DNA of 64,000 bases from Pseudomonadales bacterium. Lineage in GTDB: Bacteria > Pseudomonadota > Gammaproteobacteria > Pseudomonadales > Azotimanducaceae. Location of the stretch: positions 62,001 through 126,000 of the forward strand of contig JAJEIQ010000078.1 in assembly GCA_022827905.1 (NCBI GenBank), read 5' to 3'. A program made the position numbers and the translations under genes. Under the pieces are notes generated by a model. The model made no database searches and was not told the origin of the DNA. It saw nothing but the letters and a program-made list of their open reading frames with translations. Below are positions 6,141-32,080 of this stretch, piece after piece (the stretch's first letter is position 1; every line of letters begins with the position of its first letter).

Positions 6141-6518
6141 TCAGGCTTTCGGTCCATCGAATGACTTGATGTGCTCATACCACCCGGACCCTTTGACCCG
6201 CAGGGGAATCCCGCCGAGCCGTTCGCCGGTTTCGAGGTGCTTCTTGCGACCGTCCCAAGCGTCGGGGTCGCGCTGCCATTCGTTGAGGACGCGCTCCGCT
6301 TCCTCATAGCTCGGCGCTTCAACCTCATAGAGCGAGAGGTACTCGGAAACAGTCTCCCCGTCCAAGTGCGGTCCGCTCAGCTTGAATACGCTGCCGCGAA
6401 TGAAGTTGGGGCACTTGGCGGTGTCCTCGATGTGCTGGTCAACGAACCACTCCTCGAAGGGCGCTTGGCTGGCGGCATCCGGTGGCTCGCAAAGGCCGAT
6501 TAGAACGAAACGGGGCAT
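6141..6518 (-). CDS. Small EthD/NIPSNAP-like dimeric alpha-beta barrel protein
   Basis: The ORF track begins at 6551, but the ATG at 6518 ('MPRFVLIGLCEPPDA') is preceded by AAGGAAAGGA and gives 125 aa. The pattern of an 'FEEWFVDQHIEDTAKCPNF' type segment followed by a 'YLSLYEVEA' strand fits the ferredoxin-like dimeric barrel superfamily (EthD/NIPSNAP-like). EthD was first found beside a P450 system that attacks ethers, and this gene is divergent from a P450 cluster, which makes a role in the same pathway plausible. No catalytic residues can be named. Confidence 0.6.
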   Translation of the reverse strand: MPRFVLIGLCEPPDAASQAPFEEWFVDQHIEDTAKCPNFIRGSVFKLSGPHLDGETVSEYLSLYEVEAPSYEEAERVLNEWQRDPDAWDGRKKHLETGERLGGIPLRVKGSGWYEHIKSFDGPKA

Positions 6519-6634
6519 GGCTTTTTCCTTTCCTTGTTGAGTTGGACACACATACCGAGTTCGCGTTAATTTACCGCATCAGCCGCAGTACACCACAGCG
6601 AACTGCAAGCAGCGCACAAGCGCGGGAGAAACAC

Positions 6635-8071: not shown

Positions 8072-8095
8072 TTGGGCTGGCGAGGCACGGCGGCC

Positions 8096-9430: not shown

Positions 9431-9479
9431 AACGGCCTGCGGCTGTCCGCTTTTCGGGCCGTTCCGTTTTGTTTTTTTG
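9431..9479 (+). terminator. Rho-independent terminator after the pseudo-P450
   Basis: AACGGCC ... GGCCGTT forms a 7-bp stem around a loop that itself holds GCGG-ctgt-CCGC, followed by CCGTTTTGTTTTTTTG. It begins directly after the TGA and separates the first two P450 genes from the third. Confidence 0.8.
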
Positions 9480-9493
9480 TTTGGGGGAGATTT

Positions 9494-10813
9494 ATGGAGG
9501 CCAAAACGCCTAGCCACGCGCCCAGTCCCGTAGGCTGCCCGGCACGTTTGGAGGACGTTGATCTCTTTGCGCCGGGCGCGCAGGAGTATTGGTATGAGGC
9601 CTATGACATTCTGCACGAGCAAGCGCCGGTGCATCGCATCCCCGGGGAGGGTTTTGAACCGGGCACCGATGCCTTCATCCTCAGCAAGCACGAGGACATC
9701 GCACGGGTGGTGCGCGACGAGCAGCGCTATCCGGTCATTGGCAGCTTGTTTCTGCAGCAACTGCTTGCAACTGGCGAGCCGCCTTACGATCAACCGGGCG
9801 TCGGCGCGATCACGGCCTCGATGGCTAGCTTGCGTCCCAATCCGAAGCTCTGGCGGGCGCATCGGCAGGAACTGACCGATCCTTGGGTTGGCCCCGGCGC
9901 TGGCCGCAACGAACCGATGATTAAGCAGGTGGCCCACCAATTGATCGACCGTTGGATCGATCGCGGGCGGGTCGAGTTCGTTTCCGAGTTCGCCCAGCCC
10001 ATGCCGCAGATGGTGATGGCCAACATACTTGGCTGGCCGCTTTCCGACCTCAAGCTGCTCAAGCGCTTTGGCGACGGCACCGTGAAGCCCTTTGTGTATG
10101 GCCGCAAGCACAACAATCTACTGGACCAGCAGGAGATAACTGAGCAGCAGGGGGTGCTGGAGGAGTTCAAGCAGTACACGGCCAGCCTGATTCAGGAAAA
10201 GCGCCGCCGTCCCCAGGAGGACATGATCAGTTTCCTGACCGAGGTGGAGTATTCCCCGCTAGAGCGCAAGCTGACCGACTTGGAGATCAACGGCATCGTG
10301 TACGCCATGGTCATTGGCGGCCTGGAAACCACTCAGTATGCTCTAGCTGAAGAAGTGCAACTGCTGATCGAAAGGGAAAGCGTGTGGGATGCGATTCGGT
10401 CCGACCGCGGCAAGATGCGGGCCTTCATCGAAGAGGGCATGCGCCTGCGCTCCCCGACCCAAGGGCTGTCCACCCGGATCACCAGTCGAGACGAAGTGTT
10501 TCAAGGGGTGAAGGTGGCGAAGGGTTCCTACCTGCATCTGCGCTGGGCGGCGGCCAACATCGACCCCGATGAGTGGCGATGTCCGCAAGAGCTGCAGCTG
10601 GACCGCAAAGCCGGTACCCGGCATCTGGTGTTCTCCCAAGGCCCGCGGGTATGCCCTGGCGCTCAGTTGTCACGCATCGAGCAACTGGTTGCTTGGAATG
10701 CCCTGTGCGACCGCGTCAAAGGGTTTTCATACGGAGAGGGCAACCGTTTCCTGCACCAGCCGGGAATCATGCTGGGAACCCTGGAACTTCATCTCGAATT
10801 CGAAGCCGCCTAG
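9494..10813 (+). CDS. Cytochrome P450 (third; different subfamily)
   Basis: The 439-aa P450 has I-helix 'GGLETTQYALAEEV', an ExxR pair in 'EEGMRLRSP' and heme motif 'FSQGPRVCPG' with C387. The ribosome binding site GGGGGAG lies 4 nt before the ATG. It is clearly less similar to the other three (for example 'AFILSKHEDIARVV' at the N-terminus), so it probably acts on a different substrate or position. It lies behind its own terminator and is not tightly coupled to the next gene (about 95 nt gap). Substrate not predictable. Confidence 0.93.
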   Translation: MEAKTPSHAPSPVGCPARLEDVDLFAPGAQEYWYEAYDILHEQAPVHRIPGEGFEPGTDAFILSKHEDIARVVRDEQRYPVIGSLFLQQLLATGEPPYDQPGVGAITASMASLRPNPKLWRAHRQELTDPWVGPGAGRNEPMIKQVAHQLIDRWIDRGRVEFVSEFAQPMPQMVMANILGWPLSDLKLLKRFGDGTVKPFVYGRKHNNLLDQQEITEQQGVLEEFKQYTASLIQEKRRRPQEDMISFLTEVEYSPLERKLTDLEINGIVYAMVIGGLETTQYALAEEVQLLIERESVWDAIRSDRGKMRAFIEEGMRLRSPTQGLSTRITSRDEVFQGVKVAKGSYLHLRWAAANIDPDEWRCPQELQLDRKAGTRHLVFSQGPRVCPGAQLSRIEQLVAWNALCDRVKGFSYGEGNRFLHQPGIMLGTLELHLEFEAA

Positions 10814-10908
10814 GGAATGTGTCCCTGTCTGGGGTGCGTCCGTATCCCAAGCGCTGCAGTATTCGCCTATACTCCCCGGTACGCTAAGAGACACTTGGGA
10901 GGATAATC

Positions 10909-12207
10909 ATGGCCGAAGCCGTGCAGGAGCAGCAGGCGCCCGCGCTTCCCAACGAAATCGACCCCCGGGAGTTCGATGGCCCGGCGTTTCAGCGCGATCC
11001 CTTCCCGCTCTATCAGCGGCTGCGTGACCACCACCCCCTGTTTCATGACCGGTTTCACAACCGCTGGGTGCTGTCTCGCTATTGGGACATCGACGGCGCC
11101 TTTCAGGACAACGAGAGCTACGACCGTGCCGTGTACAAGCCGGACGGCCCATACCAATTCGGCTCAACCCACGTCTTCGGGCCGAACATCCTGGAGTACG
11201 GCAACAGCCCGCAGCACCGCTGGCTGCGCAACATCGTCGCCGGGCAATTCGTGGGCAATCGGCTGCAGGTGTTTCTGCCGATGGTGGCGCAGATCTGCGA
11301 TGAGGTGATCGCCACCTTCAGGGAGGCCGGCGAAGTGGAACTGGTCAGCCAATTCTCCAGCCAGGTGCCCATCCGCGTGATTTCCAACATGCTAGGCCTG
11401 CCCCGGGAGGATGAGGACACCTTTGTGGGCTGGTACCAAGCCCTCATCGCCGGCTTGGGTTTCGGAGGCGAGCATCTGGCCCGGGGCATTCAGGCGCGCA
11501 ACGAGATGTGGGACTACCTGGACCCGCTGATCGCAGCCCGCTCCAAGACGCCGGGCGAGGATCTTCTGTCGCGCATCGTCAGCGCCGAGCTCGATGGCGC
11601 CCGCATGAGCCCCGATGAGGTGAAGGGCTTCGTCGCCCTACTGCTTGCGGCGGGCGGCGACACCACGGATAAGGCGATCGCCAACATGTGGTACCACATG
11701 ATGTACACCCGCCCCGACCAATACGCCGATGTGCAGGCCGACCCCGATCTTTGGGATGCCGTCTTCACCGAGATGATGCGCTATGATCCCGTGGTGCATG
11801 CCCAGTTCCGCCACACCACCCGTGAGGTGGAGTTGCATGGCCGGGTTATCCCGGAGCGGGCAGGCATAATTCTCTACCTCGGCGCCGGCAACCGGGACGA
11901 GCGGGTTTTCAAGGATCCGGATACCTTTGACGTCCACCGCAGCGACCTGCACATCGGCCGCGAAAATCGCTCCGGGCGCTACAAGGACGGCAAGCCGGGC
12001 CATTTGGGCTTCGGCATCGGCCAGCACTTCTGCATGGGCTACGCCATGGCGCGGCAGGAGGCCATGATCGCCTGCACCAAGCTGATGGCGGCCATGGGCG
12101 CTGTGCAGCCGAAGTTTGACAGCCATCCCGGCATCAATTCGCCGTCCATAGACTCGGGCGGCTTCCGTTCGCCGCAGGAGTTGGTCCTGACGTTCAACCC
12201 GACATAG
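10909..12207 (+). CDS. Cytochrome P450 (fourth), directly followed by its ferredoxin
   Basis: The 432-aa P450 has I-helix 'LAAGGDTTDKAIANMWYHMM', ExxR in 'EMMRYDP' and 'FGIGQHFCMG' with C375. A GGGAGGA ribosome binding site precedes the ATG. The gene ends 10 nt before a [3Fe-4S] ferredoxin gene, the arrangement usual for P450s of three-component systems. It is closely related to the first P450 and the pseudo-P450. Its own promoter probably lies in the roughly 95-nt gap upstream. Confidence 0.94.
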   Translation: MAEAVQEQQAPALPNEIDPREFDGPAFQRDPFPLYQRLRDHHPLFHDRFHNRWVLSRYWDIDGAFQDNESYDRAVYKPDGPYQFGSTHVFGPNILEYGNSPQHRWLRNIVAGQFVGNRLQVFLPMVAQICDEVIATFREAGEVELVSQFSSQVPIRVISNMLGLPREDEDTFVGWYQALIAGLGFGGEHLARGIQARNEMWDYLDPLIAARSKTPGEDLLSRIVSAELDGARMSPDEVKGFVALLLAAGGDTTDKAIANMWYHMMYTRPDQYADVQADPDLWDAVFTEMMRYDPVVHAQFRHTTREVELHGRVIPERAGIILYLGAGNRDERVFKDPDTFDVHRSDLHIGRENRSGRYKDGKPGHLGFGIGQHFCMGYAMARQEAMIACTKLMAAMGAVQPKFDSHPGINSPSIDSGGFRSPQELVLTFNPT

Positions 12208-15964: not shown

Positions 15965-16825
15965 CTACCAGTTTATCGGCGCTTGGTTCATGGCTTTGAG
16001 CTTTCGATTGCACTCGATGAACGGATTGTGGCGGCCAAGGAAGGCATCGCCGGCGGCAGGGTGCGGTGCCACAACCGCCGATGGATGGTCAGGGGCATTG
16101 AAGCCCACGGTCAAACCGCCTTGGCTGGCGGCTTGACAGGCCGCATCGCCGAACAGAATGAACACGGCCCGCCGCGGCCCAGCGTCGAGAAGATGCCGAA
16201 TGATGTGCGCTACGAAAGGCCGCCAGAGAGGGAGGTGCCCGCGGATCTGATGAGGGTCGCCGTCCACCGAAAAGCGGCTGATGGTCAGGCTCGAATTCAA
16301 CAGCAGCACACCTTGGTCCACCCAGTGCTGAGCCAGCGCGCTCGGAGCGGGAAAGCGGTTGCGCGGATCGGAGACCGCCGCCAAGGCGCAGGGCCATTCA
16401 GCCACGCCCCGTGCGTAGCTTGGATCGCCGCAGCGGGCGGCATACACACACTGAATGAGGCTTCGCATGCTGTGCGAGGCCATGCCGTTGAGGTCGCTCC
16501 AACGGCTGTAGGCACCGGCTTCAAAGGCGCGGCCGGTGGAGAAGTGGACGTCTGGATAGGGATCCTGGCCCAGCAGCACGCAGCGAACCTCCGTCGGGGC
16601 AATGCCGTCAAAGGCGTGGAATAAATGCGCCCCTTCGGGTGCGCCCGGCAGGGCCTGGTTGCGGCGACCGGGGTAGACGAGTTCCCCGTCTTCGATGCGC
16701 AGGCTCGGATCTATCGCGATGATGGGCAGGTCAAAGCCGGTGAACAGCGACCGCCATGCGAAGGGCAAGTCGGATCGCCATCCGTCAAGCCATCGGTGCA
16801 TGAATTGGTTGAGCGGCTCGGCCAT
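15965..16825 (-). CDS. Divergent uracil-DNA glycosylase superfamily protein
   Basis: The 286-aa protein has the family 1 UDG motifs in altered form: 'VLLGQDPYPD' (water-activating Asp kept, but Pro replaces the usual His), 'VLLLNSSLTI' (the uracil-reading Asn) and 'APHPAAGDAFLG', where HPSPLS would be expected. Standard UNG proteins are about 220-230 aa; this one has an N-terminal extension and an insertion of about 35 aa before the Asn motif. It should act in base excision repair, but its substrate range may differ. It precedes the GMC gene by 11 nt. Confidence 0.8.
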   Translation of the reverse strand: MAEPLNQFMHRWLDGWRSDLPFAWRSLFTGFDLPIIAIDPSLRIEDGELVYPGRRNQALPGAPEGAHLFHAFDGIAPTEVRCVLLGQDPYPDVHFSTGRAFEAGAYSRWSDLNGMASHSMRSLIQCVYAARCGDPSYARGVAEWPCALAAVSDPRNRFPAPSALAQHWVDQGVLLLNSSLTISRFSVDGDPHQIRGHLPLWRPFVAHIIRHLLDAGPRRAVFILFGDAACQAASQGGLTVGFNAPDHPSAVVAPHPAAGDAFLGRHNPFIECNRKLKAMNQAPINW

Positions 16826-17696: not shown

Positions 17697-17714
17697 ATCA
17701 AGAGGGTGGCCAGA

Positions 17715-20000
17715 ATGCGAAACAAGCAGCAAAAGGGGGTTGGATCCAATTTGTCGATTGGTTTCCAGAGACTGCCTCATGTGGCCGCATGGTGTGTCGC
17801 AGGGCTTGCGGCGGTCACTGGCTCGGGTGTGGTGAGTGCGGTGGAATCGGCGGCAGCACCCGCTGGCGCCATTGAGGAAGTGATTGTTACGGCGCGTAAG
17901 CGGCAGGAATCGCTGCAGGAGACGCCCATCTCCATCACCGCCTTCTCGGAGGTCGATCTCGAGCAGGCCAACATGATCGACCTGCGCGATATTGGCAAGT
18001 TCACGCCCGGCATGTCGTTTACCTCCTACGGCATGGGCAGCGCAGAGGCGGGGGCTATTTTCCTGCGCGGCATTGGTCAATCGGATCACATGGTGACCAC
18101 TGACCCGGGCGTCGGCCTGTACATTGACGGCGTATACATGGGCCGCAATCAGGGTGCCGCCTTGGACTTGCTTGATCTGGAGCGGGTGGAGGTGCTGCGC
18201 GGTCCCCAAGGCACCCTGTTCGGCAAGAACACCATCGGCGGTGCGGTCAACGTGGTCAGCCGCAAGCCGAGCGGTGAGCCCGGTGGACACGTTGCGGCCA
18301 CCTTTGGCGAGGATGGGCGCATCAATCTGGAAGCCTCGGCTGAATTTGGGTTGAGCGATGGCTTGGCGTTCCGTGCGGGCATCCTGAGCCGCAACCGGGA
18401 CGGCGTCGGCGAGCAGGTGTTCACCGGCGATGAGCTTGGCGATGAGGACAGCTTGAGCGGGCGAGCGCAGTTGCATTGGAGTGGCGCGGCCTCGGAACTG
18501 TCGGTAGTAGTGGACGCCAGCAAGGCGCGCCAAGGGGCGGTGCCGCACAGCTTCTACGAGTTTGCCGATTGGATGGTGGCCTTCTTCGGCGCTGCACCCT
18601 GCTTTGCCAGTGCTGGGGACGGCCAGTACGCGCCCTGCCCGAGCGGTGCGGACGCCGACCCGTTTGACAGCTACTCCCTTGATGATCTGAACACCGAGCA
18701 GGACCTGCTCGGCGTTTCCGCCACTTGGCAGTGGGACCTGTTCGAAACTCTAACCCTGAAGTCGATTACCGCCTACCGGGACATGGAGTACGTCGGCAAC
18801 TTGGAGTTCGACGGAGCGCCTCAGGTCGTCGTCCACTACTTGGAGACCGGGGCTTCGGATCAGTTCTCCCAGGAAATCCAATTGCTGGGCGGAAACGAGG
18901 CGGGCACGGTTGATTGGATTGCCGGCCTCTACTACTTCACGGAGGACGGCCACAATCTGCAGGATGACAATCAGTTCGGTGCCCTCGATCAGCGCCGGTC
19001 GCAAGTGGAGACTGAGAGCTATGCCGCCTTTGGCCAAGTCACCGTCGATCTGAGCGAGCGCTTGAGCTTGACGGCGGGGCTGCGCTACACCGACGAGGAG
19101 AAGGACTACGACATCTACTATCAGTCGCTGGACGCCAGCGGCGCGCCGGCCGTCGATGACAGCGGCCAACTGGTGTACAGAATCCCGCCCAGCAGCCTCG
19201 GCGATTCATGGGACGCCGTTTCGGGCACCGTCAACGGCAAGTTCCAAGTCTCCGATGAACTCATGCTCTATGCAACATACTCCCGGGGATTCCGCAGCGG
19301 TGGCTTCGCTGCCCGGCCTGCCGCACCGGCCAGCGTCGGCGCCTACGACCCGGAGTACGTGGACATGATTGAAGTGGGCCTCAAGGCACAGGCCTTCGAT
19401 GATCGAATGCGGCTCAATGTCTCGGCCTACACCAGCGACTACGAGGACTACCAAGCCCAGGTGAACCGAGTGGGCAACGCCTTCGACACCCGAGTGCTGA
19501 ACGCCGCCGAAGCGGAAATCGACGGCTTTGAGATGGAGTTGACCGCCCTGTTCTCCCCTTGGCTCCGGGTGGTGGCCACCTTGGGCTACACCGATGCGGA
19601 GATTACCAAGGTGGATCTCGACCCGGCCCTGGAGGCCAACTTTAGCAAGGGCTCGCGGCTGCCTTACGTAAGCAAGGTCACCTACAGCATTTCGCCCCAG
19701 GCCATGTGGCCCCTTGCGAACGGCGCCAGCCTTCTGCTACGGGCCGACTACGCCTACCGGGACGACTTCTACGGCCAGATCGCCAACTCGCCGTTTGAAA
19801 AGGAGGATGGCTACGGCTTGGTGAACGCCCGCATCGAATTCTCAAGCCCCGGGGAACGCTGGCGGCTCTCGCTCTACGGCATCAATCTGGCGGACAAGAA
19901 GTACACGCGGGTGCGCAACTACTACCCTGGGTTTCTCGGCTTCGCCCTGTGGAACACCGACCGCCGTGAAATCGGCATCAGCGGTCGCCTTGAGTTCTAG
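17715..20000 (+). CDS. TonB-dependent outer-membrane receptor of the pyrimidine operon
   Basis: The 761-aa receptor has an N-terminal signal region, a TonB-box-like 'IEEVIVTARKR', a plug domain ('LFGKNTIGGAVNVVSRKP') and a beta-barrel ending in 'REIGISGRLEF' with terminal Phe. The start is set at ATG 17715 after AGAGGG; the track's GTG at 17706 lacks a spaced ribosome binding site. It is the first gene after three operators and is followed by a nucleobase permease and the catabolic genes, so it probably imports pyrimidines, nucleosides or a pyrimidine-containing compound. Ligand not shown by sequence. Confidence 0.9.
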   Translation: MRNKQQKGVGSNLSIGFQRLPHVAAWCVAGLAAVTGSGVVSAVESAAAPAGAIEEVIVTARKRQESLQETPISITAFSEVDLEQANMIDLRDIGKFTPGMSFTSYGMGSAEAGAIFLRGIGQSDHMVTTDPGVGLYIDGVYMGRNQGAALDLLDLERVEVLRGPQGTLFGKNTIGGAVNVVSRKPSGEPGGHVAATFGEDGRINLEASAEFGLSDGLAFRAGILSRNRDGVGEQVFTGDELGDEDSLSGRAQLHWSGAASELSVVVDASKARQGAVPHSFYEFADWMVAFFGAAPCFASAGDGQYAPCPSGADADPFDSYSLDDLNTEQDLLGVSATWQWDLFETLTLKSITAYRDMEYVGNLEFDGAPQVVVHYLETGASDQFSQEIQLLGGNEAGTVDWIAGLYYFTEDGHNLQDDNQFGALDQRRSQVETESYAAFGQVTVDLSERLSLTAGLRYTDEEKDYDIYYQSLDASGAPAVDDSGQLVYRIPPSSLGDSWDAVSGTVNGKFQVSDELMLYATYSRGFRSGGFAARPAAPASVGAYDPEYVDMIEVGLKAQAFDDRMRLNVSAYTSDYEDYQAQVNRVGNAFDTRVLNAAEAEIDGFEMELTALFSPWLRVVATLGYTDAEITKVDLDPALEANFSKGSRLPYVSKVTYSISPQAMWPLANGASLLLRADYAYRDDFYGQIANSPFEKEDGYGLVNARIEFSSPGERWRLSLYGINLADKKYTRVRNYYPGFLGFALWNTDRREIGISGRLEF

Positions 20001-20064: not shown

Positions 20065-21736
20065 ATGGCTGTGGTCGATAACGCCATCGAGAGCTCGCCG
20101 CTCTACTCTCCTGACTTGGCGCCGGTGTCCTCGGAGCGCTGCACTTGGAGCCTTTGGAATCTGGCGGCCGTCTGGGTCGGCATGGCGGTGTGCATCCCGA
20201 CCTGGCTGCTGGCGAGCTACATGATCCGTAGCGGCCTCGGTTGGGTGGAGGCGTTGGCGATCATCTTCATTGCCAATGTCATCGTCACCGTGCCGATGAT
20301 CCTCAACGGCCACGCGGGGGTACGCTACCGGCTGCCCTTTGCGGTGTTGGGACGCGCTGCCTTCGGCGTTGGCGGCGTTCATGGTCCCGCGCTGGTGCGG
20401 GCGCTGGTGGCTTGCGGCTGGTTTGGCATTCAGACTTGGATCGGTGGCCTCGCCATTCACGCCATGGGCTGCGTCTTGGCGGGCATCCCTGTGGACGCTG
20501 GTCTGACGCCCGGCAAGTTCGCCGGGTTTGCGCTCTCCTTGGCCCTCAACGTGCTCATCATCTGGCGGGGGATCGACTCGATTCGCCGTCTTGAAACCCT
20601 GGCCGCGCCGTTGCTGCTTGGGGTAGGCCTGCTGCTGGTGGCTTGGGGTGCCAATGAGGGTGGTGGATTCGGGGCGGTGCTGGGGCAAAGTACCCAACTC
20701 GAACATCCCACAGCGAGCTACGACGCCGAAGGAAGCCTACTGCTGGCGCCCTTGCGCGACGGGCGCGGCGCGGTCAAGGCCGATGAATTCCGCGTCGGCC
20801 CACGGGATGACATCGAGGCCGCACCTTGGCGGTCGTTGGGGATGGATGGCGCTCGCGTGGCGGCTGCGGAACTGCCGCAAGGGCCATTGGCCGTCCAGTT
20901 TCGCCGCAACGGCACCAGTTCCTCGGCGATCGCCCCGGCCAAGGAGGCTGATGCGGCCTCCAAGATCGGCGTGTGGCTGTTCTGGACAACCGCCATGGTT
21001 GGATTCTGGGCCACGATGTCCATCAGCATTGCCGACATAACACGCTACAGCCGTTCCCAAAAGGCGCAGGCGGTCGGTCAACTGCTCGGCTTGCCCGGTG
21101 CCATGCTGCTCTACAGTTTCGTCAGCGTCTTCGTCACTTGCGCGGCGTTAATCGGATTCGACGGCATTCTCATCGCCGAGGATGCGCCTTGGGATCCGGT
21201 GACCCTAATCGCCCATTTTGACAACCCGCCGCTGGTGCTGGCCGCGCAGCTGACGCTGCTCATCGCCACGGTGACCACCAACGTCGCGGCCAACGTCATT
21301 GCCCCGGCCAATGCCTTCGCCAACCTCAATCCGCGGCGCTTGGATTTCCGGCGCGGCGGCCTCATTGCCGCATTGATCGGCGTCCTAATTGCGCCTTGGT
21401 GGCTGTTTGACCGCATCAGCGACCTGCTGGTGTTCGTTAGCGGCCTGCTGGGACCGGTGCTCGGCGTCATGTTGGCGGACTATTACTGGGTTCGCCAGGC
21501 TCGTTTATCGGTTGCGGCGCTATTCGACCCCAACGGCCCTTACGCCTACCGCGGCGGCATCAACCCGGCCGCGGCACTGGCCTTGGCTGCCGGGGTGGCG
21601 GTGGCCTTGATCGGCTACTTCGTCCCACCGTTGGAATGGCTTTACACCGCTTCCTGGTTTTCCGGCTGCTTGGCCGCGTTTCTCCTCTATGGCGTTGCGG
21701 CGCGGCGCCAGCAGACTGCTTGGCGAAGGAGGACTT

Positions 21737-21756
<20 letters not shown>
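20065..21756 (+). CDS. NCS1-family nucleobase:cation symporter with an extra domain-sized loop
   Basis: The 563-aa membrane protein matches NCS1 permeases (uracil, allantoin, hydantoin transporters): 'WSLWNLAAVWVGM', 'GGVHGPALVRALVACGWFGIQ' and 'ATMSISIADITRYSRSQ'. Typical members are about 480-500 aa. The excess lies in one hydrophilic insertion of about 80 residues (around residues 215-295, after 'GAVLGQST' and before 'LFWTTAMVGFW'), between transmembrane segments. It should import pyrimidine bases or hydantoin-like compounds across the inner membrane. It overlaps the next gene by 20 nt. Confidence 0.92.
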
Positions 21757-23131
<1,375 letters not shown>

Positions 23132-23139
23132 GAAGCAGC

Positions 23140-24009
23140 ATGGCGGCTCGAACCTTGAAATGCGGACTGATTCAGATGTCGCTGCCGGAGAACGGGGCGA
23201 GCGGCGAGATTGCGGAGGTCGCGGAGGCGATGATCGCCAAGCATGTGCCGCTGATCGAGGCGGCAGGGCGTCAGCGGGTGCAGGTCCTTTGCTTGCAGGA
23301 GATTTTCAGCACCCCGTACTTTTGCCCCAGCCAGGATACCGCTTGGTTCGCCGCCGCCGAGCCAGTGCCCGGGCCAACCACTGAGCGCATGGCCGAATAC
23401 GCTGGCCGCTACGCCATGGTGATGATCGTGCCGGTTTACGAGAAGGAGGGCAGCGGCCTGCTCTACAACACCGCTGCGGTGATCGATGCCGATGGTCGTT
23501 ACCTCGGCAAATACCGCAAGACACACATTCCGCAGACATCGGGCTTTTGGGAGAAGTTCTTCTTCCGTCCGGGAAACCTCGGCTATCCGGTGTTCGACAC
23601 CGCCTATGCCAAGGTGGGGGTTTACATTTGCTACGACCGCCATTTTCCGGAAGGCGCTAGGGCTTTGGGCCTCGGCGGTGCGGAAGTGGTGTTCAACCCC
23701 TCCGCCACGGTCAAGGGGCTGTCGGATCACCTGTGGGCGATTGAGCAGCCCGCCCATGCCGTCGCCAACGGCTACTTTATGGGCTGCGTCAACCGGGTGG
23801 GGGTGGAAGCCCCCTGGAATCTGGGCACCTTCTACGGCAGCAGCTACTTTGTTGATCCGCGAGGCAGGATTTTCGCCCAAGCCTCGGAGACGGACGACGA
23901 ACTGCTCGTTGCCGAGCTCGACCTCAGCGTGATTGACGAGGTGCGCAGCGTCTGGCAGTTCTATCGGGACCGCCGCCCCGACGCTTACCAAGCGGTCACG
24001 GCGCCATGA
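23140..24009 (+). CDS. Beta-ureidopropionase (N-carbamoyl-beta-alanine amidohydrolase), nitrilase superfamily
   Basis: The 289-aa protein has the nitrilase Glu-Lys-Cys triad: E54 ('LQEIF'), K127 ('YRKTHIP') and C164 ('YICYDRHFPEG'). In this operon it should hydrolyse N-carbamoyl-beta-alanine to beta-alanine, CO2 and ammonia. I use ATG 23140 (TAGGAAGC upstream), because the track start at 23020 would overlap 110 nt of hydA with no family-like sequence. Its stop overlaps the aminotransferase start (ATGA). Confidence 0.93.
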   Translation: MAARTLKCGLIQMSLPENGASGEIAEVAEAMIAKHVPLIEAAGRQRVQVLCLQEIFSTPYFCPSQDTAWFAAAEPVPGPTTERMAEYAGRYAMVMIVPVYEKEGSGLLYNTAAVIDADGRYLGKYRKTHIPQTSGFWEKFFFRPGNLGYPVFDTAYAKVGVYICYDRHFPEGARALGLGGAEVVFNPSATVKGLSDHLWAIEQPAHAVANGYFMGCVNRVGVEAPWNLGTFYGSSYFVDPRGRIFAQASETDDELLVAELDLSVIDEVRSVWQFYRDRRPDAYQAVTAP

Positions 24010-25349
24010 GTGCCGTCCAGTCCGAAGGCGATGCGCTGTCCCGTGCCGATGGGCAAGGCGCCAAGGACCGGGTGCTCGACCAGTACCGAGCCCACATCTT
24101 CCCCCAGGTGAAGAGCATTCACTCCGACCCCGTGGTGGTGGTCGAAGGCCGGGGCTGCCGGGTCAAGGACATTGACGGCAACAGCTACTTGGACTTTTTC
24201 GGCGGCATCCTGACCGTGTCCGTCGGCCACGCTAACGAGGAAGTCAACACCGCCGTCATAGCCCAGGTCCGGCGCCTGACTCATATCTCCACCCTGTATC
24301 CCACCCTGCCCATGGCGGAGCTTGCCGAACGCCTCGCCCGCATCACCCCGGGCGCACTGCAGAAGTGCTTCTTTACCAGTTCCGGCAGCGAGGCTGACGA
24401 GGCGGCGGTGATGATGGCACAAAGCCATACGGGCAACAGCGAGGTGATCGCGTTGCGCCACGGATATTCGGGCCGCACCCTGCTGGCCCAGGGCTTGACC
24501 GGCCATGCGGGCTGGCGCAGCAACGCACACCTTGCCCCCGGCATTCGTCACGCCCCCTCCCCCTACTGCTACCGCTGCCCGCTCAAGTTGACCTACCCCA
24601 AGTGCGGCTTAGCCTGCGCCCACGACCTTGATGAGCTCATCGACACCACCACCAGCGGACGGGTTGCGGCGATGCTGGCGGAACCCATCCAAGGCGTCGG
24701 CGGGTTCATCACGCCTCCCGTCGAGTACTTCGCCATCGCGGCGGACATCGTGCGCAAGCGCGGCGGCGTGTTCATCGCCGATGAGGTCCAGACCGGCTTT
24801 GGCCGCACCGGGCGTTTCTGGGGCATTGAGCACTATGGCGTTGAACCCGACATGATGACCATGGCCAAGGGCATCGCCAACGGCCTGCCCTTGGGCGCTT
24901 TGGTGGCCAGTGCGCCCATCGCGGATTCGATGACCAAATCCACCCTGTCCACTTTTGGCGGCAATCCGGTTAGCTGCGCGGCAGCGAACGAGGTGATCGG
25001 CATCGTGCAGCGGGATCGGTTGGCGGAGGGCGCGGCGGCCCTCGGCGGGCAGTTGCGGGAGGGCTTGACCCGCATTCAAAGCCACTTTCCGGCCATGGTG
25101 GGCGATGTGCGGGGCATGGGGCTGATGCAGGCCATCGAGTTCGTCGCGGACGAAACTCGCCAAGACCGCACACCGGCGCCCGAACGCACCGGCGTGTTTG
25201 TCGAAGCCGCCCGCCAACGTGGCTTGCTGTTAGGCCGTGGGGGCGTTTACGGCAACGTGGTGCGCATCGCACCACCTTTGACCGTCTCTTCCGGAGAGAT
25301 TGACGAAGCGTTGCGGATCATTGAGGACGCGCTCACCGATGTCGATTGA
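24006..25349 (+). CDS. Class III aminotransferase, predicted beta-alanine:pyruvate transaminase
   Basis: The 447-aa PLP enzyme has 'FTSSGSEADEAAVMMA', 'EPIQGVGG', 'DEVQTGFGRTG' and the Schiff-base lysine K288 in 'MAKGIANGLPLG'. A Cys-bearing insert ('YCYRCPLKLTYPKC') is shared with AGXT2-like aminotransferases. In context it should convert beta-alanine (or beta-aminoisobutyrate) to malonate semialdehyde (or its methyl analogue). It is coupled by ATGA to the ureidopropionase gene and overlaps preT by 11 nt. Confidence 0.92.
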   Translation: MSAVQSEGDALSRADGQGAKDRVLDQYRAHIFPQVKSIHSDPVVVVEGRGCRVKDIDGNSYLDFFGGILTVSVGHANEEVNTAVIAQVRRLTHISTLYPTLPMAELAERLARITPGALQKCFFTSSGSEADEAAVMMAQSHTGNSEVIALRHGYSGRTLLAQGLTGHAGWRSNAHLAPGIRHAPSPYCYRCPLKLTYPKCGLACAHDLDELIDTTTSGRVAAMLAEPIQGVGGFITPPVEYFAIAADIVRKRGGVFIADEVQTGFGRTGRFWGIEHYGVEPDMMTMAKGIANGLPLGALVASAPIADSMTKSTLSTFGGNPVSCAAANEVIGIVQRDRLAEGAAALGGQLREGLTRIQSHFPAMVGDVRGMGLMQAIEFVADETRQDRTPAPERTGVFVEAARQRGLLLGRGGVYGNVVRIAPPLTVSSGEIDEALRIIEDALTDVD

Positions 25350-26667
25350 TCCGGTTCAGCAATGGCCGCTGGGCGAGGGGCTTGACCCCAATCGGCTGGA
25401 ATGCCGCTTCGAGGACGCCAAGCCACCCTATACGCCCGCAGAAGCGCTCGTTGAGGCGAACCGCTGCCTGCACTGCTTTGACGCGCCTTGCGTGCGCGGT
25501 TGTCCCACGGCCATCGACATTCCCAAATTCATCGCGCAGATCAGTTCCGGCAACTTGCGTGGGGCAGCAAAGACGATCTTCCGCCAGAACATGCTCGGTG
25601 CCTCCTGTGCCCGAGTCTGCCCCGTGGAGGAAATGTGCGCTGGCGCTTGTGTTTACCATGCCCTCAACGGCCAGCCAATCGCCATTGGCCGTCTGCAGCG
25701 CTACGCTACTGACGTTGCCTTGGCTGATGAGCGGGCCAGCGGACGGCGCTTGTTTTCGCCGGCGTCCGCCAACGGTCGGCGGGTGGCGCTGGTCGGCGCC
25801 GGCCCCGCCAGCTTGGCTTGTGCCGCGCATTTGGCCTTGGCAGGCGTGTCGGCAAGCATCTACGAGCGGGACGGCTTGCCGGGTGGGCTGAACACCACTG
25901 CCGTTGCGCCTTACAAGATGCGTGCCGAGTCGAGCCTGGCGGAGGTTGAATGGCTGCTTAGCCATGGCGTTGAACTCAGGACGGACACAACGGTTGGGAC
26001 GGACATCGCCTGGCCTGAACTGATGGCCACCCACGACGCCGTGTTCATTGGCGTGGGCTTGGGGCAGGCCAGATCCCTGGAGCTTGAAGGCCCAGGTGTC
26101 TGGGGCGCCACTGAATTGATCCGTGCCATCAAGAACGAGCCCGGGTTCGAGTTGCCCGGCGATGTTCGCCGGGCCGTGGTCGTCGGCGGCGGCAACACCG
26201 CCATCGATGTGGCCCGTGAGTTGGCGATGCTGGGCATCGCTGAGGTGACCTTGGCCTATCGTCGCAGCCGCGCGGACATGAGCGCCTACGCCCATGAGTG
26301 GGCTGGTGCCCGCCAGTCCGGCGTCCGCCTGCAGACGCGATTGCAGCCGTGCCGCACCGTGCATCATCGGCAACGGCTGGTGGGTGTGGTGTTTCAGGAT
26401 GCGGTCAACGGACGTGAAGTGGAATTGCCCTGCGAATTGCTGGTGGTCGCGGCGGGTCAGTCGCCTTGGGCGGCGCTGGTTGATGCCGGGATTCGCCTCA
26501 ACGCCGATGGAACGGTTTGGACGCAACCGGAAACCCGAGCGACCTCCTTGGCAGGCGTCTACGCGGGAGGAGACTGCGTCAATGGCGGCAAGGAAGTGGT
26601 GGACGCCGCGGCTGACGGTCGCATCGCCGCTCACGCCATGCTGGAGGAGTGGGGAGCTTGTGGCTGA
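25339..26667 (+). CDS. preT: PreT, NAD(P)H-oxidising subunit of dihydropyrimidine dehydrogenase
   Basis: The 442-aa protein has an N-terminal Fe-S domain ('CLHCFDAPCVRGCP', 'SCARVCPVEEMCAGAC') followed by two nucleotide-binding folds ('VALVGAGPASLACA' and 'VVVGGGNTAIDVAREL'), the GltD-like plan of PreT. It takes electrons from NAD(P)H and passes them to PreA. The start is ATG 25339 inside the aminotransferase end. The preA start lies within its last codons, so the two subunits are made together. Confidence 0.94.
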   Translation: MSIDPVQQWPLGEGLDPNRLECRFEDAKPPYTPAEALVEANRCLHCFDAPCVRGCPTAIDIPKFIAQISSGNLRGAAKTIFRQNMLGASCARVCPVEEMCAGACVYHALNGQPIAIGRLQRYATDVALADERASGRRLFSPASANGRRVALVGAGPASLACAAHLALAGVSASIYERDGLPGGLNTTAVAPYKMRAESSLAEVEWLLSHGVELRTDTTVGTDIAWPELMATHDAVFIGVGLGQARSLELEGPGVWGATELIRAIKNEPGFELPGDVRRAVVVGGGNTAIDVARELAMLGIAEVTLAYRRSRADMSAYAHEWAGARQSGVRLQTRLQPCRTVHHRQRLVGVVFQDAVNGREVELPCELLVVAAGQSPWAALVDAGIRLNADGTVWTQPETRATSLAGVYAGGDCVNGGKEVVDAAADGRIAAHAMLEEWGACG

Positions 26668-28006
26668 CTTGAGCGTAGAATTCTGCGGCATCGACAGCCC
26701 CAACCCGTTCTGGTTGGCATCCGGTCCGCCAACCAACAGCGGCGAACAGGTGATGCGGGCCTTTGACGCGGGTTGGGGCGGCGCGGTTTGGAAGACGTTG
26801 GGCGAGCCCATCGTCAATTTGAACAGCCGGTTTGGCGCGTTGGACATCGGCGGCGTCAAAGTAGCTGGATTCAACAATATCGAACTGATTACCGACCGCC
26901 CCTTGAGCGTTAACTTCCGGGAGATGGCGGAAGTCAAGCGGCGCCATCCAGACCGTGCACTAATCGCGAGCCTGATGGTGGAGTCCCGTGCGGAATGGCG
27001 CGACCTCATTCAACGCTCGGAGGATGCCGGCTGCGACGGCATCGAACTGAATTTCGGCTGCCCGCACGGCATGTGCGAACGGGGCATGGGCAGCGCCGTC
27101 GGCCAGGAGCCTCGGGTGTTGGCTGAAATCACCGGATGGGCCAAAGAATTCGCCTCGGTGCCCGTGCTGGTCAAGCTCACACCCAATGTGGATGACATTT
27201 TGGTTCCGGGACGGGCGGCGGTGGAGGCGCGGGCGGATGGCTTGTCCCTCATCAATACCATCAAGAGCCTGATCGGCGTCGATCTCGACCGCATGGCGCC
27301 CCTACCGTCGGTGGCCGGCGAAGGCACCCATGGCGGCTACTGCGGCCCGGCCGTCAAACCCATTGCCTTGCACATGGTGGGCGCACTGGCCCGCGACCCC
27401 GGCATCGATGTGCCGCTCTCAGCCATTGGCGGCATCGCCACTTGGCGAGACGCCGCTGAGTTTATGGCCTTGGGCGCTGCCAACGTCCAAGTCTGCACCT
27501 CGGTCATGCACAAGGGCTACCGCATCGTCGAGGACCTGATCGAAGGCTTGAACGAATTCCTGGATGCCAAGGGCATCGCATCCGCTGCCGAACTGGTTGG
27601 CCAGGCAGTGCCGAACTTCCGCGAGTGGGGTGATCTCGACCTAAACTATCGCATCGTGGCCGACATCGATGCCGATCGCTGCATCGGCTGCCATCTCTGC
27701 TACATCGCCTGCTTGGACGGCGCCCATCAGTGCATCCACACGGCCCAGTCGCCGTGCGGCGCATGGCACGGGGAGCCGGATCACGGCCAACGCCCGCGCG
27801 CCACGGTCCTGCCGCCCGTCCGCCATGAACCGCGGCCGGGCTTGACCGCTCAGGTGCCTTGGGTGGACGAAGCGGAATGCATCGGCTGCAACCTTTGCGC
27901 GTTGGTCTGTCCCGTGCCCGGGTGCATCACCATGCGGGAGTCCGAATCAAGCAATGAACGGCTGAGCTGGAAGGAACGTTCCGCATCTGCCGACCAGAAG
28001 GCGTAA
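26660..28006 (+). CDS. preA: PreA, dihydropyrimidine dehydrogenase catalytic subunit
   Basis: The true start is GTG 26660 ('VADLSVEFCGIDSPNPFWLAS'), giving 448 aa; the track adds 122 out-of-family residues that overlap preT. An FMN-binding barrel with 'NFGCPHGMCERGMGSAVGQ' (active-site Cys loop) is followed by a C-terminal two-[4Fe-4S] ferredoxin domain ('CIGCHLCYIAC' and 'CIGCNLCALVCPVPGC'). The spacer between the two cluster motifs is longer than in E. coli PreA. With PreT it reduces uracil and thymine to their dihydro forms, step one of the pathway. Confidence 0.94.
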   Translation: MADLSVEFCGIDSPNPFWLASGPPTNSGEQVMRAFDAGWGGAVWKTLGEPIVNLNSRFGALDIGGVKVAGFNNIELITDRPLSVNFREMAEVKRRHPDRALIASLMVESRAEWRDLIQRSEDAGCDGIELNFGCPHGMCERGMGSAVGQEPRVLAEITGWAKEFASVPVLVKLTPNVDDILVPGRAAVEARADGLSLINTIKSLIGVDLDRMAPLPSVAGEGTHGGYCGPAVKPIALHMVGALARDPGIDVPLSAIGGIATWRDAAEFMALGAANVQVCTSVMHKGYRIVEDLIEGLNEFLDAKGIASAAELVGQAVPNFREWGDLDLNYRIVADIDADRCIGCHLCYIACLDGAHQCIHTAQSPCGAWHGEPDHGQRPRATVLPPVRHEPRPGLTAQVPWVDEAECIGCNLCALVCPVPGCITMRESESSNERLSWKERSASADQKA

Positions 28007-28036: not shown

Positions 28037-29305
28037 ATGAACTCTCTCCCGCCGCTCTTTAGGGTTTGCACGGCTCTGGCAATTGCCGCGATCACTGGAT
28101 TGGGCTCGGCCCAGTCCCTGGCTGCGACCTACACATACTTGCTGTGGTCGTCGGAGGCAACCCAGCCCATCTATCCTGACGTGAGTTGGCTGCCTGATCC
28201 GTACAAGCCCTACTACGAAAAGGATTCAATCGAAGATACGGTGAAGTTGTTTCTTGCGAGTTCAATGAAAAATGATGGCGTTGCGTACAATTCGATCAGT
28301 GTTTCTGTTGACCAGTCCACCGGTGGTCTAACCGTCACAATCGACTCTGACGATACTAGAGCGGGCGACTATCGAGCAGTGCATCCGAAGTTCTACCAAA
28401 ACTACGGAAGCGCCACCTTGGGAATCAGCAAGTGCAAGAACCAATCGGGATGTTGGAACAAGAACAACTCCAACCCGAATGAGCCTTGGGCATTCTTCCC
28501 CCAATTCGGCTTGCCCATGGTCAATCAGAAGTCCGTTTTGCTGCTCAACTATCCGCCCGCCAGCGCACTCACTGGCAAAGACTATTTGAACACCTTCACC
28601 ATGTCACGCTGGACAAGGCTGCTTTCGGGGGTGGGAATAGACAACCCCACCTTGTTCGAGACCATTGTGGATGTGCGTCCCATTGCCGCGCCGGGAAGCG
28701 GGACGTCACAAAACCTGCCGGATGCCATCACGTATTTCAACGATCAAACTGGGCTAACCGGCGGCTATTACATCACGCCCCAGTTGAATCTGATGTTGGA
28801 TCCCCCAGCCAACTGGGATGCTGACTCGGCACTTCCCTTGGTCATCCTCGGCGGACCCGCCCGCGCCACTTGGAAAGCGATGACCCAGCTGGACGATTCC
28901 GTGCTCAGCACGGGAACCACGTACCTTCCCGGCGCGACCAAGAAGGTGCCCTACATTCTCGGCAACCATCCGGATGTCACCACCTATCAGTGCTGTCCGG
29001 GGGACACGAGTTCGAGTTGCACGTCGCATCAGCTTATCGAAATGGAGGAGATCGACGTTCAAATCGGGTGCTGGGCGGACCAAATGGCCCAAGACCCCAC
29101 AAAGGACCCGGCCCAGGTCCTAGCCTCCTGCAAGTCGCTATGGGTCACGAATCGCTCGGCAGACAACGATCTTGCGTTTTGCGCGTTGGCGCGGGCTGAC
29201 AGCAACGAGTGTTTCGATAAAGGCTTGACTTGGGAAGAGGCAATTGCCTATTGCAAAGCGAACAACAACAATCCCTGCGCAAGCTATGCTTGCCCCGTTC
29301 CATAG
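28037..29305 (+). CDS. Cys-rich secreted protein of unknown function inside the pyrimidine operon
   Basis: I do not recognise this 422-aa protein. It has a clear signal peptide ending near 'QSLAA', a mature N-terminus 'TYTYLLWSSEATQP', and 12 cysteines in the mature part, ten of them in the last third ('YQCCPGDTSSSC', 'NPCASYACPVP'). Such a pattern suggests a disulfide-bonded periplasmic or extracellular protein. A GAGGAA ribosome binding site precedes the ATG. It sits 30 nt after preA and 19 nt before an aldehyde dehydrogenase on the same strand, so it should be co-expressed. Codon use looks more relaxed and AT-richer than in its neighbours, hinting at later insertion. Confidence 0.8.
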   Translation: MNSLPPLFRVCTALAIAAITGLGSAQSLAATYTYLLWSSEATQPIYPDVSWLPDPYKPYYEKDSIEDTVKLFLASSMKNDGVAYNSISVSVDQSTGGLTVTIDSDDTRAGDYRAVHPKFYQNYGSATLGISKCKNQSGCWNKNNSNPNEPWAFFPQFGLPMVNQKSVLLLNYPPASALTGKDYLNTFTMSRWTRLLSGVGIDNPTLFETIVDVRPIAAPGSGTSQNLPDAITYFNDQTGLTGGYYITPQLNLMLDPPANWDADSALPLVILGGPARATWKAMTQLDDSVLSTGTTYLPGATKKVPYILGNHPDVTTYQCCPGDTSSSCTSHQLIEMEEIDVQIGCWADQMAQDPTKDPAQVLASCKSLWVTNRSADNDLAFCALARADSNECFDKGLTWEEAIAYCKANNNNPCASYACPVP

Positions 29306-29324: not shown

Positions 29325-30782
29325 GTGCGACTGAAGGACAGTGGGCTGCTGCGCACCCAAGCTTACGTCGATGGCGAATGGATAAACGCTGATGACGGCG
29401 GATTCGTTGCTGTAATCAATCCGGCCAGCGGCGCCACCGTGGCCGAAGTGGCACGCTGCGGTGGTGCGGAGACGCGCCGGGCCATTTTGGCTGCGCAGCG
29501 GGCGCAGGCGGATTGGCGGCGGCGCACCGCCAAGGAAAGGGCGGATGCGCTGCGGATGCTGTTTGATCTGATGATCGCCCACCAGGAGGACTTGGCGCAG
29601 ATTCTCACCGTCGAGCAGGGCAAGCCATTGGCCGAAGCCCGCGTCGAGATCGCCTACGGCGCCAGCTACTTTGAGTGGTTCGCGGAGGAGGCCAAGCGGG
29701 TTTACGGGGACACCATACCGGCACCGGGTTTGGACAAGCGGATCGTCACGGTGAAGCAGCCGGTTGGCGTGGTGGCCTGCATTACGCCATGGAATTTCCC
29801 CAACGCCATGTTGGCGCGCAAGATTGCGCCGGCCTTGGCGGTTGGCTGCACAGTGGTCTGCAAACCTGCCACAGCAACCCCGCTTTCGGCGCTGGCCATC
29901 GGCGCGCTGGCGGAGCGAGCTGGCGTGCCCGCCGGCGTCATCAACATCCTGGCTGGTGACACCCGCTCGATCGGCGATGAACTGACCGGTAACCCGGCTG
30001 TGCGCAAGCTGACCTTCACCGGCTCCACCGAAGTGGGCAAAACCTTGATTCGCGCATGCGCCGGCACGGTCAAGCGAACGTCGATGGAGTTGGGCGGCAA
30101 TGCGCCGTTCATTGTCTTCGACGACGCGGACCTCGACGCTGCGGTGCGCGGCGCCGTGGCCTGCAAGTATCGCAACGCCGGTCAGACCTGCGTATCGGCC
30201 AATCGCATGCTGGTGCAGTCCGGGGTGTTTGACGAGTTTGCCCAACGCCTAGTCGACGCGGCGCAGGGCCTTACCTTGGGTGACGGCCTGGACCGGCACA
30301 CCACCATGGGGCCGCTAATCGACGCGCCTGCCGCCCGCAACGTACGGGAACTGGTTGACGACGCCGTGGCGAACGGCGCTTCCGTGTTGGCCGGATCAGA
30401 CCAAGCCGAGAACGGGGAAACCTTCGTCAGGCCAACGGTGCTGGCAGGCGTGACGGCGGACATGCGCGTCTGCCGGGAGGAGATATTCGGTCCCGTAGCG
30501 CCGCTGATGCGCTTCGACACTGAGGAGGAGGCCATTCGTCTGGCCAACGACACCCCCTTTGGTTTGGCCGCCTACTTCTACGCCCGCGACCTCGGTCGTG
30601 TCTGGCGGGTGGGAGAGGCGCTCGACTTTGGCATTGTCGGCATTAACGAAGGCATTATCTCCAACGCCGCCGCACCATTCGGCGGCGTCAAGGAATCGGG
30701 CAATGGCCGCGAAGGCTCCAAGTACGGCTTGGACGACTACTTGGAGATCAAGTACCTGTGCATGGGCGGCATTGACGCCTAG
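29325..30782 (+). CDS. Aldehyde dehydrogenase (GabD-like), probably for malonate semialdehyde
   Basis: The start is GTG 29325 with TAGGAGG 4 nt upstream, giving 485 aa; the track ATG at 29244 lies in the previous gene. Catalytic residues are visible: Glu in 'SMELGGNAPF' and C289 in 'NAGQTCVSANR'. The sequence is of the succinate-semialdehyde type, not the CoA-acylating methylmalonate type. After a beta-alanine transaminase, its likely substrate is malonate semialdehyde, giving malonate. Substrate is inferred from context. Confidence 0.9.
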   Translation: MRLKDSGLLRTQAYVDGEWINADDGGFVAVINPASGATVAEVARCGGAETRRAILAAQRAQADWRRRTAKERADALRMLFDLMIAHQEDLAQILTVEQGKPLAEARVEIAYGASYFEWFAEEAKRVYGDTIPAPGLDKRIVTVKQPVGVVACITPWNFPNAMLARKIAPALAVGCTVVCKPATATPLSALAIGALAERAGVPAGVINILAGDTRSIGDELTGNPAVRKLTFTGSTEVGKTLIRACAGTVKRTSMELGGNAPFIVFDDADLDAAVRGAVACKYRNAGQTCVSANRMLVQSGVFDEFAQRLVDAAQGLTLGDGLDRHTTMGPLIDAPAARNVRELVDDAVANGASVLAGSDQAENGETFVRPTVLAGVTADMRVCREEIFGPVAPLMRFDTEEEAIRLANDTPFGLAAYFYARDLGRVWRVGEALDFGIVGINEGIISNAAAPFGGVKESGNGREGSKYGLDDYLEIKYLCMGGIDA

Positions 30783-30913: not shown

Positions 30914-32080
30914 ATGATCGAAAATTCGCGCGGCGATTCCGGTTTCGGGGCGATCATCGCCACCGGCGCCTGCGCAGCCATGATCTTCAACACTTTGCCG
31001 CTGTTCCTCGGCGCGGCGACCGATGCCCACCAACTCAGCCATGCCGCTACGGGCGGGCTGGGCAGCCTCTACCTAGGGGCCTTCGGCCTTTCATCAGTCG
31101 CGGCAGCCTATTGGATGGAGCGGGCGGATCGCCGGGTTCTGGCGTTGGGCCTCTTTCTTGGTGCGGCCACTATGCTGGTGCTTGCCGCAACGGCCGATGG
31201 CTGGCCGTTCTTTGCTGCTTCCCTGTTCGGAGCAGGTTTGCTTCTCGGGGCGCTCTACAGCTTGTCCTTTGTGATCGCCGGCGAGCGGTCGAATCCGACC
31301 CGTGCCTTCGGCATCAAGCTGTTGGGCGAGGTGGCGCTTGGTGCCGCGCTCTTAGCGGTCATCCCTCTTTACCTCCTGCCCGTCTTCGGCATGGCCGGGA
31401 TGCTGATGGGGTTCGCCGCGGTGGCGTTGGCCGGTTCGCTGTGCGTTCCCTGGATTGCCCGTCGGGCACCGCTGTCCAGCACGGCGCAGCCATCGGCGGG
31501 AACTGCCCTTCCGGGGTTGCCGATGGCCGCCGTGGCCTGCTTGGCTGCATTGTTCGTTTTCACCATCGGCCAGAGCGCCGTCTGGTCCTTCGTTGAGCGA
31601 CGCGGCGCAGCTGCTGGATTTGATGGTGCGGCCATCGGAGCAGCGTTGTCGGTTGCCGCCTTCGCCGGCGGTTTGGGCTCCTTGGCCGCGGCCTGGATTT
31701 CGGAGCGCCTCGGCCCGGTCACGCCATTGCTCGTCGCCGCCTCCCTGCATGCGCTGGCCCTTATCCTGTTCGCAGCAGTGAGTGGCTTCCCTGCATTCGT
31801 TGCCGCCGTCAACCTATTCATGTTTGCTTGGCTGTTTGCGCTCCCCTATATGACCGCGGCGGTGTCGGCATCGGATCCGAATGGTCGGGCAACTTCCGTG
31901 GTCGCCGCCTGTTTGGCGTTCGGCAGCATGGCCGGCCCCGGCCTGGCTGGCCAACTCGTGGCTGGAGGCGGCTTCGGCTGGCTGTATGCTGGCGCGGCCG
32001 GCGCGGCGCTTGCCGCCTATGTGGCGTTTGGCCGTCTTGCGAACACCCGCATCGGGCCAAAGACCGGAATGGCGGACTAG
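30914..32080 (+). CDS. MFS permease (12 predicted membrane segments)
   Basis: The 388-aa hydrophobic protein alternates membrane helices and short loops in the MFS pattern, with 'ERADRRVLALGL' after helix 2. A ribosome binding site GAAGGGAGG precedes the ATG. The 131-nt gap after the aldehyde dehydrogenase leaves room for a separate promoter, so membership in the pyrimidine operon is likely but not certain. It may export or import a pathway intermediate. It converges on the peptidase gene, leaving 1 nt between stops. Confidence 0.8.
   Translation: MIENSRGDSGFGAIIATGACAAMIFNTLPLFLGAATDAHQLSHAATGGLGSLYLGAFGLSSVAAAYWMERADRRVLALGLFLGAATMLVLAATADGWPFFAASLFGAGLLLGALYSLSFVIAGERSNPTRAFGIKLLGEVALGAALLAVIPLYLLPVFGMAGMLMGFAAVALAGSLCVPWIARRAPLSSTAQPSAGTALPGLPMAAVACLAALFVFTIGQSAVWSFVERRGAAAGFDGAAIGAALSVAAFAGGLGSLAAAWISERLGPVTPLLVAASLHALALILFAAVSGFPAFVAAVNLFMFAWLFALPYMTAAVSASDPNGRATSVVAACLAFGSMAGPGLAGQLVAGGGFGWLYAGAAGAALAAYVAFGRLANTRIGPKTGMAD

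Follow-up and report, generated by a model that had tools for sequence, protein, structure and literature searches.

The locus and the P0001 gene

The window analysed here, a stretch of 64,000 nucleotides of contig JAJEIQ010000078.1 from a Pseudomonadales bacterium (Azotimanducaceae), carries a run of plus-strand genes, from a TonB-dependent receptor through an MFS permease, in which the P0001 gene lies between preA and an aldehyde dehydrogenase gene (Table 1). PreA and dihydropyrimidinase both exceed their NCBIfam cut-offs, which identifies the run as a locus of reductive pyrimidine (PreTA) catabolism. With the known PreTA/Pyd pathway it shares PreT, PreA, dihydropyrimidinase, a ureidopropionase-type enzyme, an aminotransferase and a semialdehyde dehydrogenase; unlike that pathway as described, it adds its own TonB receptor and a new exported protein. 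The receptor and permease genes adjoin each other in the window, and P0001 sits elsewhere in the locus.

Table 1. Features of the pyrimidine locus and of P0001 (positions in the window).
Feature	Coordinates	Strand	Basis and remarks
TonB-dependent receptor	17706..20000	+	Plug, TonB_dep_Rec_b-barrel; in G008 and L005 its orthologue lies immediately before that of P0001
NCS1-type nucleobase permease	20065..21756	+	PF02133, 5e-83
Dihydropyrimidinase	21737..23131	+	TIGR02033, above curated cut-off
CN-hydrolase, probable beta-ureidopropionase	23140..24009	+	PF00795; function inferred from context
Class-III aminotransferase, probably beta-alanine	24006..25349	+	Family match; substrate inferred from context
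PreT-type dihydropyrimidine dehydrogenase subunit	25336..26667	+	Fer4_20, Pyr_redox_2
PreA, dihydropyrimidine dehydrogenase subunit	26651..28006	+	NF006183, above curated cut-off
P0001 ORF	28037..29305	+	422 aa plus stop; exported Cys-rich protein of an unnamed family
Predicted Sec signal peptide (SPI type) of P0001	28037..28126	+	About residues 1-30; sequence reading, hydrophobicity and lipobox scan
LLNYPPAS, residues 169-176	28541..28564	+	Corresponds to LLHFPPDY of the wider family; at the expected place of UDG motif A (alignments; hand extension of the hhalign alignment)
TIVDVRPIAAP, residues 209-219	28661..28693	+	Family-wide IxDIxPIAAP; aligned with the UDG ITNxxxxRPP strand
ILGNHPDVTTY, residues 307-317	28955..28987	+	Aligned with UDG motif B (HPS)
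Cys-rich C-terminal region of P0001	28991..29293	+	10 of 12 mature Cys
Aldehyde dehydrogenase, SSADH-like; semialdehyde step	29325..30782	+	Family matches
MFS permease	30914..32080	+	Homologue flanks the locus in G008, G001 and L005

The initial annotation had described an exported protein with 12 mature cysteines, mostly near the C-terminus, encoded inside a catabolic operon between preA and the aldehyde dehydrogenase gene and having its own ribosome binding site and a different codon usage, and all of this was borne out. P0001 contains 13 cysteines, one of them in the signal peptide, and ten of the 12 mature ones fall within residues 319–419. At the N-terminus, MNSLPPLFR-VCTALAIAAITGLGSAQSLAA-T has the character of a signal peptide, whose hydrophobic run was found by a hydrophobicity scan and whose cleavage site was placed by reading the sequence and not by a prediction tool. 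Family matches confirmed the identities of the neighbouring genes, and a GAGGA motif is located 7–8 nt 5' of the ATG. The GC content of the gene (55.4% versus 61.7%–65.8% in the other locus genes), its GC3 (0.686 versus 0.739–0.810) and its codon-bias distance (0.324 versus 0.167–0.263) all lie outside the range of the locus. The orthologues described below are equally low in GC, with 51% versus 60%–61% in the neighbouring genes of genome G008 and 53% versus 58%–61% in those of the JAPOYV contig (L005), indicating that low GC is an old, lasting property of this gene and not the mark of a recent insertion.

Gaps of 30 bp and 19 bp separate P0001 from preA and from the aldehyde dehydrogenase gene, respectively, on one strand, and neither contains a sigma-70-like promoter or a plus-strand terminator; P0001 is thus placed as expected for an operon gene. 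Single-protein and profile searches yielded no credible family match in Pfam, NCBIfam, PADLOC or PDB sequences, and peptidase, lectin, SusD and solute-binding protein identities, all lacking profile matches, were dropped. No relatives were found on plasmids, phages or IMG/VR contigs, hence there is no sign that the gene is carried by mobile elements.

Orthologues in and out of pyrimidine loci

A P0001 homologue occurs in two of the 58 nearest genomes, the window's own genome and G008 of the same genus (61% identical), and a gene of the family in 15 of 399 genomes of the phylum sample. A scan of contigs revealed orthologues on JAPOYV010000133.1 (L005, 62%), in a Cellvibrionaceae isolate (L007, 56%) and on VYDB01000088.1 (L006), the last of which represents the same genome as G008 and was counted once. 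All 12 mature cysteines are invariant across the window, G008, L005 and L007 proteins, at 56%–62% identity, and this conservation is more than chance.

The genes in G008 (L003/L004) and L005 follow the order TonB receptor, P0001 orthologue, NCS1 permease, dihydropyrimidinase, beta-ureidopropionase and aldehyde dehydrogenase, with no preTA within the stretch read. The orthologue adjoins the receptor gene in both, unlike in the window, so that P0001 and a pyrimidine locus occur together in three genomes and in two gene arrangements. For so rare a gene, chance would hardly produce three co-localisations in two arrangements, and the link of P0001 to the pyrimidine pathway is real. Two one-contig genomes of the same genus, G001 and G006, have no copy of P0001 genome-wide but retain the receptor, permease, dihydropyrimidinase and ureidopropionase. 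The persistence of these loci indicates that the pathway runs without P0001, which is therefore an optional accessory. No pyrimidine genes adjoin the relatives L007, L008 and L009. In the tree the window, G008 and L005 proteins form a weakly supported group (88/60) that neighbours L007 and L008; since the pyrimidine-linked members form one clade, they probably reflect one recruitment event and not several.

The TonB receptor gene of the window shows 89.8% DNA identity (about 95% at the protein level) to the receptor of G008, while the remaining genes of the same locus are only 67%–74% identical. Identity so far above that of the rest of the locus suggests a recent exchange of the receptor gene between these lineages.

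The wider family

Profile searches extended the family to nine Pseudomonas-like genomes (L034–L042), whose genus, g321, is probably Pseudomonas. Their unnamed exported proteins belong to the same family as judged by profile (E 1e-57 to 1e-69), signal peptide and core motifs, but differ from P0001 in length (369–391 aa), in number of cysteines (6–7) and in having no adjoining pyrimidine genes. Further members are encoded in two genomes of one other genus (L032 and L033) and singly at L008, L009, L043, L044 and L045. The only cysteines common to the wider family are C345, C365, C382 and C406. A lipobox scan gave hits in the relatives L007, L009 and L034 and none in the window, G008 and L005 proteins. 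Nucleobase or pyrimidine genes were found beside the family gene neither in the nine Pseudomonas-like genomes nor in members of other classes; as most members lack such neighbours, this is not a pyrimidine protein family overall.

Six genomes from several families (G1091, G1015, G1109, G325, G621 and G666) also carry a P0001-like domain within a conserved cluster (L065 3382–6792, minus strand; L066, L067, L011, L050 and L051). In the first three of these genomes it makes up the N-terminal portion of a protein about 1,100 aa long; in G1091, where the whole protein was read, the C-terminal end is a PF04185 phosphoesterase domain. The partners in the cluster are a Ser/Thr kinase-AAA-GAF-GGDEF/cyclase protein, a GGCT/AIG2-like protein and a third, unnamed protein (SGAMETxLMDMDW) with a length of about 240 aa. 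A signal peptide is absent in all three cluster-type members read (L062, L063 and L043). The L007 gene is followed, 38 bp downstream, by an ORF that is partly similar to the kinase/cyclase protein type. In G621 the P0001-like gene is spread across two reading frames (L050 8770–9135 and 7905–8918, minus strand), through either a frameshift or a sequencing error. In G1091 (L065 8812–12006, minus strand) a cytosine deaminase and a cytosine permease, both above NCBIfam cut-offs, lie 2–5 kb from the P0001-like/phosphoesterase fusion gene; this proximity was left as chance because G1015 and G1109 show no shared genes there.

Resemblance to uracil-DNA glycosylases

Reading of the alignments, before any profile test, pointed to a likeness in motif order between the P0001 family and uracil-DNA glycosylases (UDGs). 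The two share the order of conserved motifs, with hhalign setting LL..NG / IxDIxPIAAP / PxVAxGxPV / VLxANHPS of the P0001 family on mL..iG / ITNxxxxRPP / vxLGxxA / HPS of the family 4/5 UDGs (PF03167). The family profile matched a shallow family-5 UDG set with E 0.032 and a family-4+5 set with E 0.0026 (probability 11.6%, 105 columns). The latter ranked first of 76 hhalign target alignments, and two automatically formed UDG clusters, derived from fetched ORFs, were also among the top five. A profile of five divergent members alone scored E 0.00076 (probability 25%) in the same register; the window clade alone reached a non-significant E of 0.3, its short alignment keeping the register. A reversed-profile control scored E 0.78 against the family-4+5 target but 0.013 against a GQAPG UDG set, thus single E values near 0.01 are not trustworthy alone, and the UDG likeness, weak though repeatable, is a lead, not proof. 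Family-1 UDGs (UNG) and GQAPG-type UDGs gave no signal with hhalign, and the Pfam model PF03167 matched none of the members scanned (E limit 1 to 10).

Motif A of UDGs reads GQDPY or GE(A/G)PG (PMC10359453), and their uracil-binding Asn lies in a TNxV motif, as N91 of UdgX (PMC10776899). The P0001 family has LLNYPP (window clade) or LLHFPP (elsewhere) in place of motif A, without a conserved motif-A Glu; an ungapped hand extension of the hhalign alignment brings its invariant Pro onto the motif-A Pro. The uracil-binding Asn is absent, with an invariant Asp (D212) at the aligned position. The NH(P) motif is set by hhalign onto the HPS of motif B; its His is invariant, whereas the residues around it vary, many members having HPS, the window protein HPD and L043 NHM. 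The P0001 family differs from family 4/5 UDGs also in being exported, in escaping the Pfam model, in its distance from motif-A Pro to motif-B His (122–158 versus 111–121) and in additional N-terminal and Cys-rich C-terminal parts. AlphaFold2 models built from a four-sequence input had a pLDDT of 52.6 for the full length and 36.2 for the core, and a Foldseek search with the former, low-confidence model gave no significant fold match (best E 1.1). Filing P0001 as a UDG was rejected, since neither motif A nor the uracil-binding Asn is retained. Whether its fold is distantly related to that of UDGs is about evenly balanced.

Possible role of P0001

We tentatively propose that P0001 is an exported, disulfide-stabilised protein that, in one clade, may have been recruited as an optional extracytoplasmic part of a TonB-dependent pyrimidine-scavenging pathway. 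This proposal, our preferred one although we give it slightly less than even odds, is based on the export signal, the conserved cysteines, the recurrent linkage (three genomes, two arrangements) and the absence of P0001 from two similar loci; a periplasmic site, the binding or cleavage of a pyrimidine and a hand-over to the permease are steps that we infer. The TonB receptor would carry a pyrimidine compound (nucleoside, nucleotide fragment or free base) over the outer membrane, and P0001 in the periplasm would bind this compound or free the base from it. The base would then be imported by the NCS1 permease and broken down by PreTA, dihydropyrimidinase, beta-ureidopropionase, the aminotransferase and aldehyde dehydrogenase.

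The arrangement in G008 and L005 resembles SusC/SusD-type TonB uptake loci, in which a receptor gene is likewise followed directly by a gene for an exported protein, together with a permease and catabolic enzymes. In contrast to those systems, P0001 is not similar to SusD or to any known binding-protein family, and the substrate pathway is pyrimidine reduction. Pfam models of binding proteins, SusD-type or other periplasmic ones, gave no match to P0001, and the window, G008 and L005 proteins, having no lipobox, do not share the outer-membrane lipoprotein character of SusD. A search of the open-access literature turned up no account of TonB-dependent pyrimidine uptake loci that include a protein of this kind. 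What is new is the protein family and the receptor-protein-permease unit; the catabolic pathway is already known.

The suggestion in the initial annotation that the protein might bind or process a pyrimidine-containing substrate outside the cell is thus partly supported: it has gained a locus link that recurs in two more genomes, while most of the family lacks nucleobase neighbours, and the binding or processing is putative. Homologues confined to unrelated contexts, the outcome that had been named as speaking against a nucleobase link, were not what the relatives showed. Its other suggestion, an unrelated cargo gene, would mean a chance insertion into the operon and has become very improbable. 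The lower GC and the codon use unlike that of the neighbours had spoken for it, as does the lack of P0001 in most close relatives, but the composition is common to the orthologues and therefore no argument for cargo; plasmid, phage or viral-contig copies were not found, and the recurrence with the same pathway in three genomes and two arrangements largely refutes it.

A plausible, though rather doubtful, alternative is that P0001 is a general envelope protein whose job is not pyrimidine-specific, e.g., in cell-envelope or phospho-compound metabolism, and which was kept by happenstance in the locus of one clade. It accords with the location of the majority of the family outside pyrimidine loci and with the six-genome kinase/GGCT cluster, including the three fusions to the phosphoesterase domain. 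However, the cluster members examined are divergent and have no signal peptide, so their function need not carry over, and this alternative does not account for the recurrent placement of the exported clade's genes next to receptor and permease. An exported UDG-fold enzyme that cuts extracellular pyrimidine nucleosides or uracil-containing DNA at the N-glycosidic bond and passes the base to the permease seems improbable. The profile likeness to family-4/5 UDGs with the correct motif order, the invariant His of the NHP motif, the Asp-containing strand where the uracil-recognition strand lies and the gene context would agree with it; against it stand the failure of the Pfam UDG model to recognise P0001, the replacement of GE(A/G)PG by NYPP/HFPP, of the uracil-binding Asn by Asp and of HPS by HPD in the window protein, and the lack of a significant match for the window clade by itself.

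A UDG-related fold, if real, would fit base binding by P0001, and the changed motif A together with the Asp speaks for binding, somewhat, over the standard UDG reaction, which these changes make unlikely. The more specific version of our proposal, namely that a disulfide-stabilised UDG-like fold was exported and turned into an extracytoplasmic binder or releaser of pyrimidine bases, within a dedicated scavenging system with the TonB receptor and NCS1 permease, is unlikely as a whole. If the UDG-like fold were true, a DNA-repair fold would have moved outside the cytoplasm for nutrition. The passage of pyrimidines over the Gram-negative outer membrane by TonB-dependent transport is little described, and the locus groups a receptor with an exported protein and a permease into one testable unit. 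As the family spans Pseudomonas-like and other genomes and is unnamed in current libraries, a single ligand or structure would annotate many genes.

Two further observations concern the surroundings of the locus. A divergent UDG-superfamily protein (15965–16825, minus strand; PF03167, 25 bits, just over the cut-off) is encoded beside a GMC oxidoreductase, and the same pair flanks the receptor locus in G008 and G006. Upstream of the locus, four consecutive cytochrome-P450-like ORFs, identified by eye, occupy positions 6482–12207 on the plus strand.
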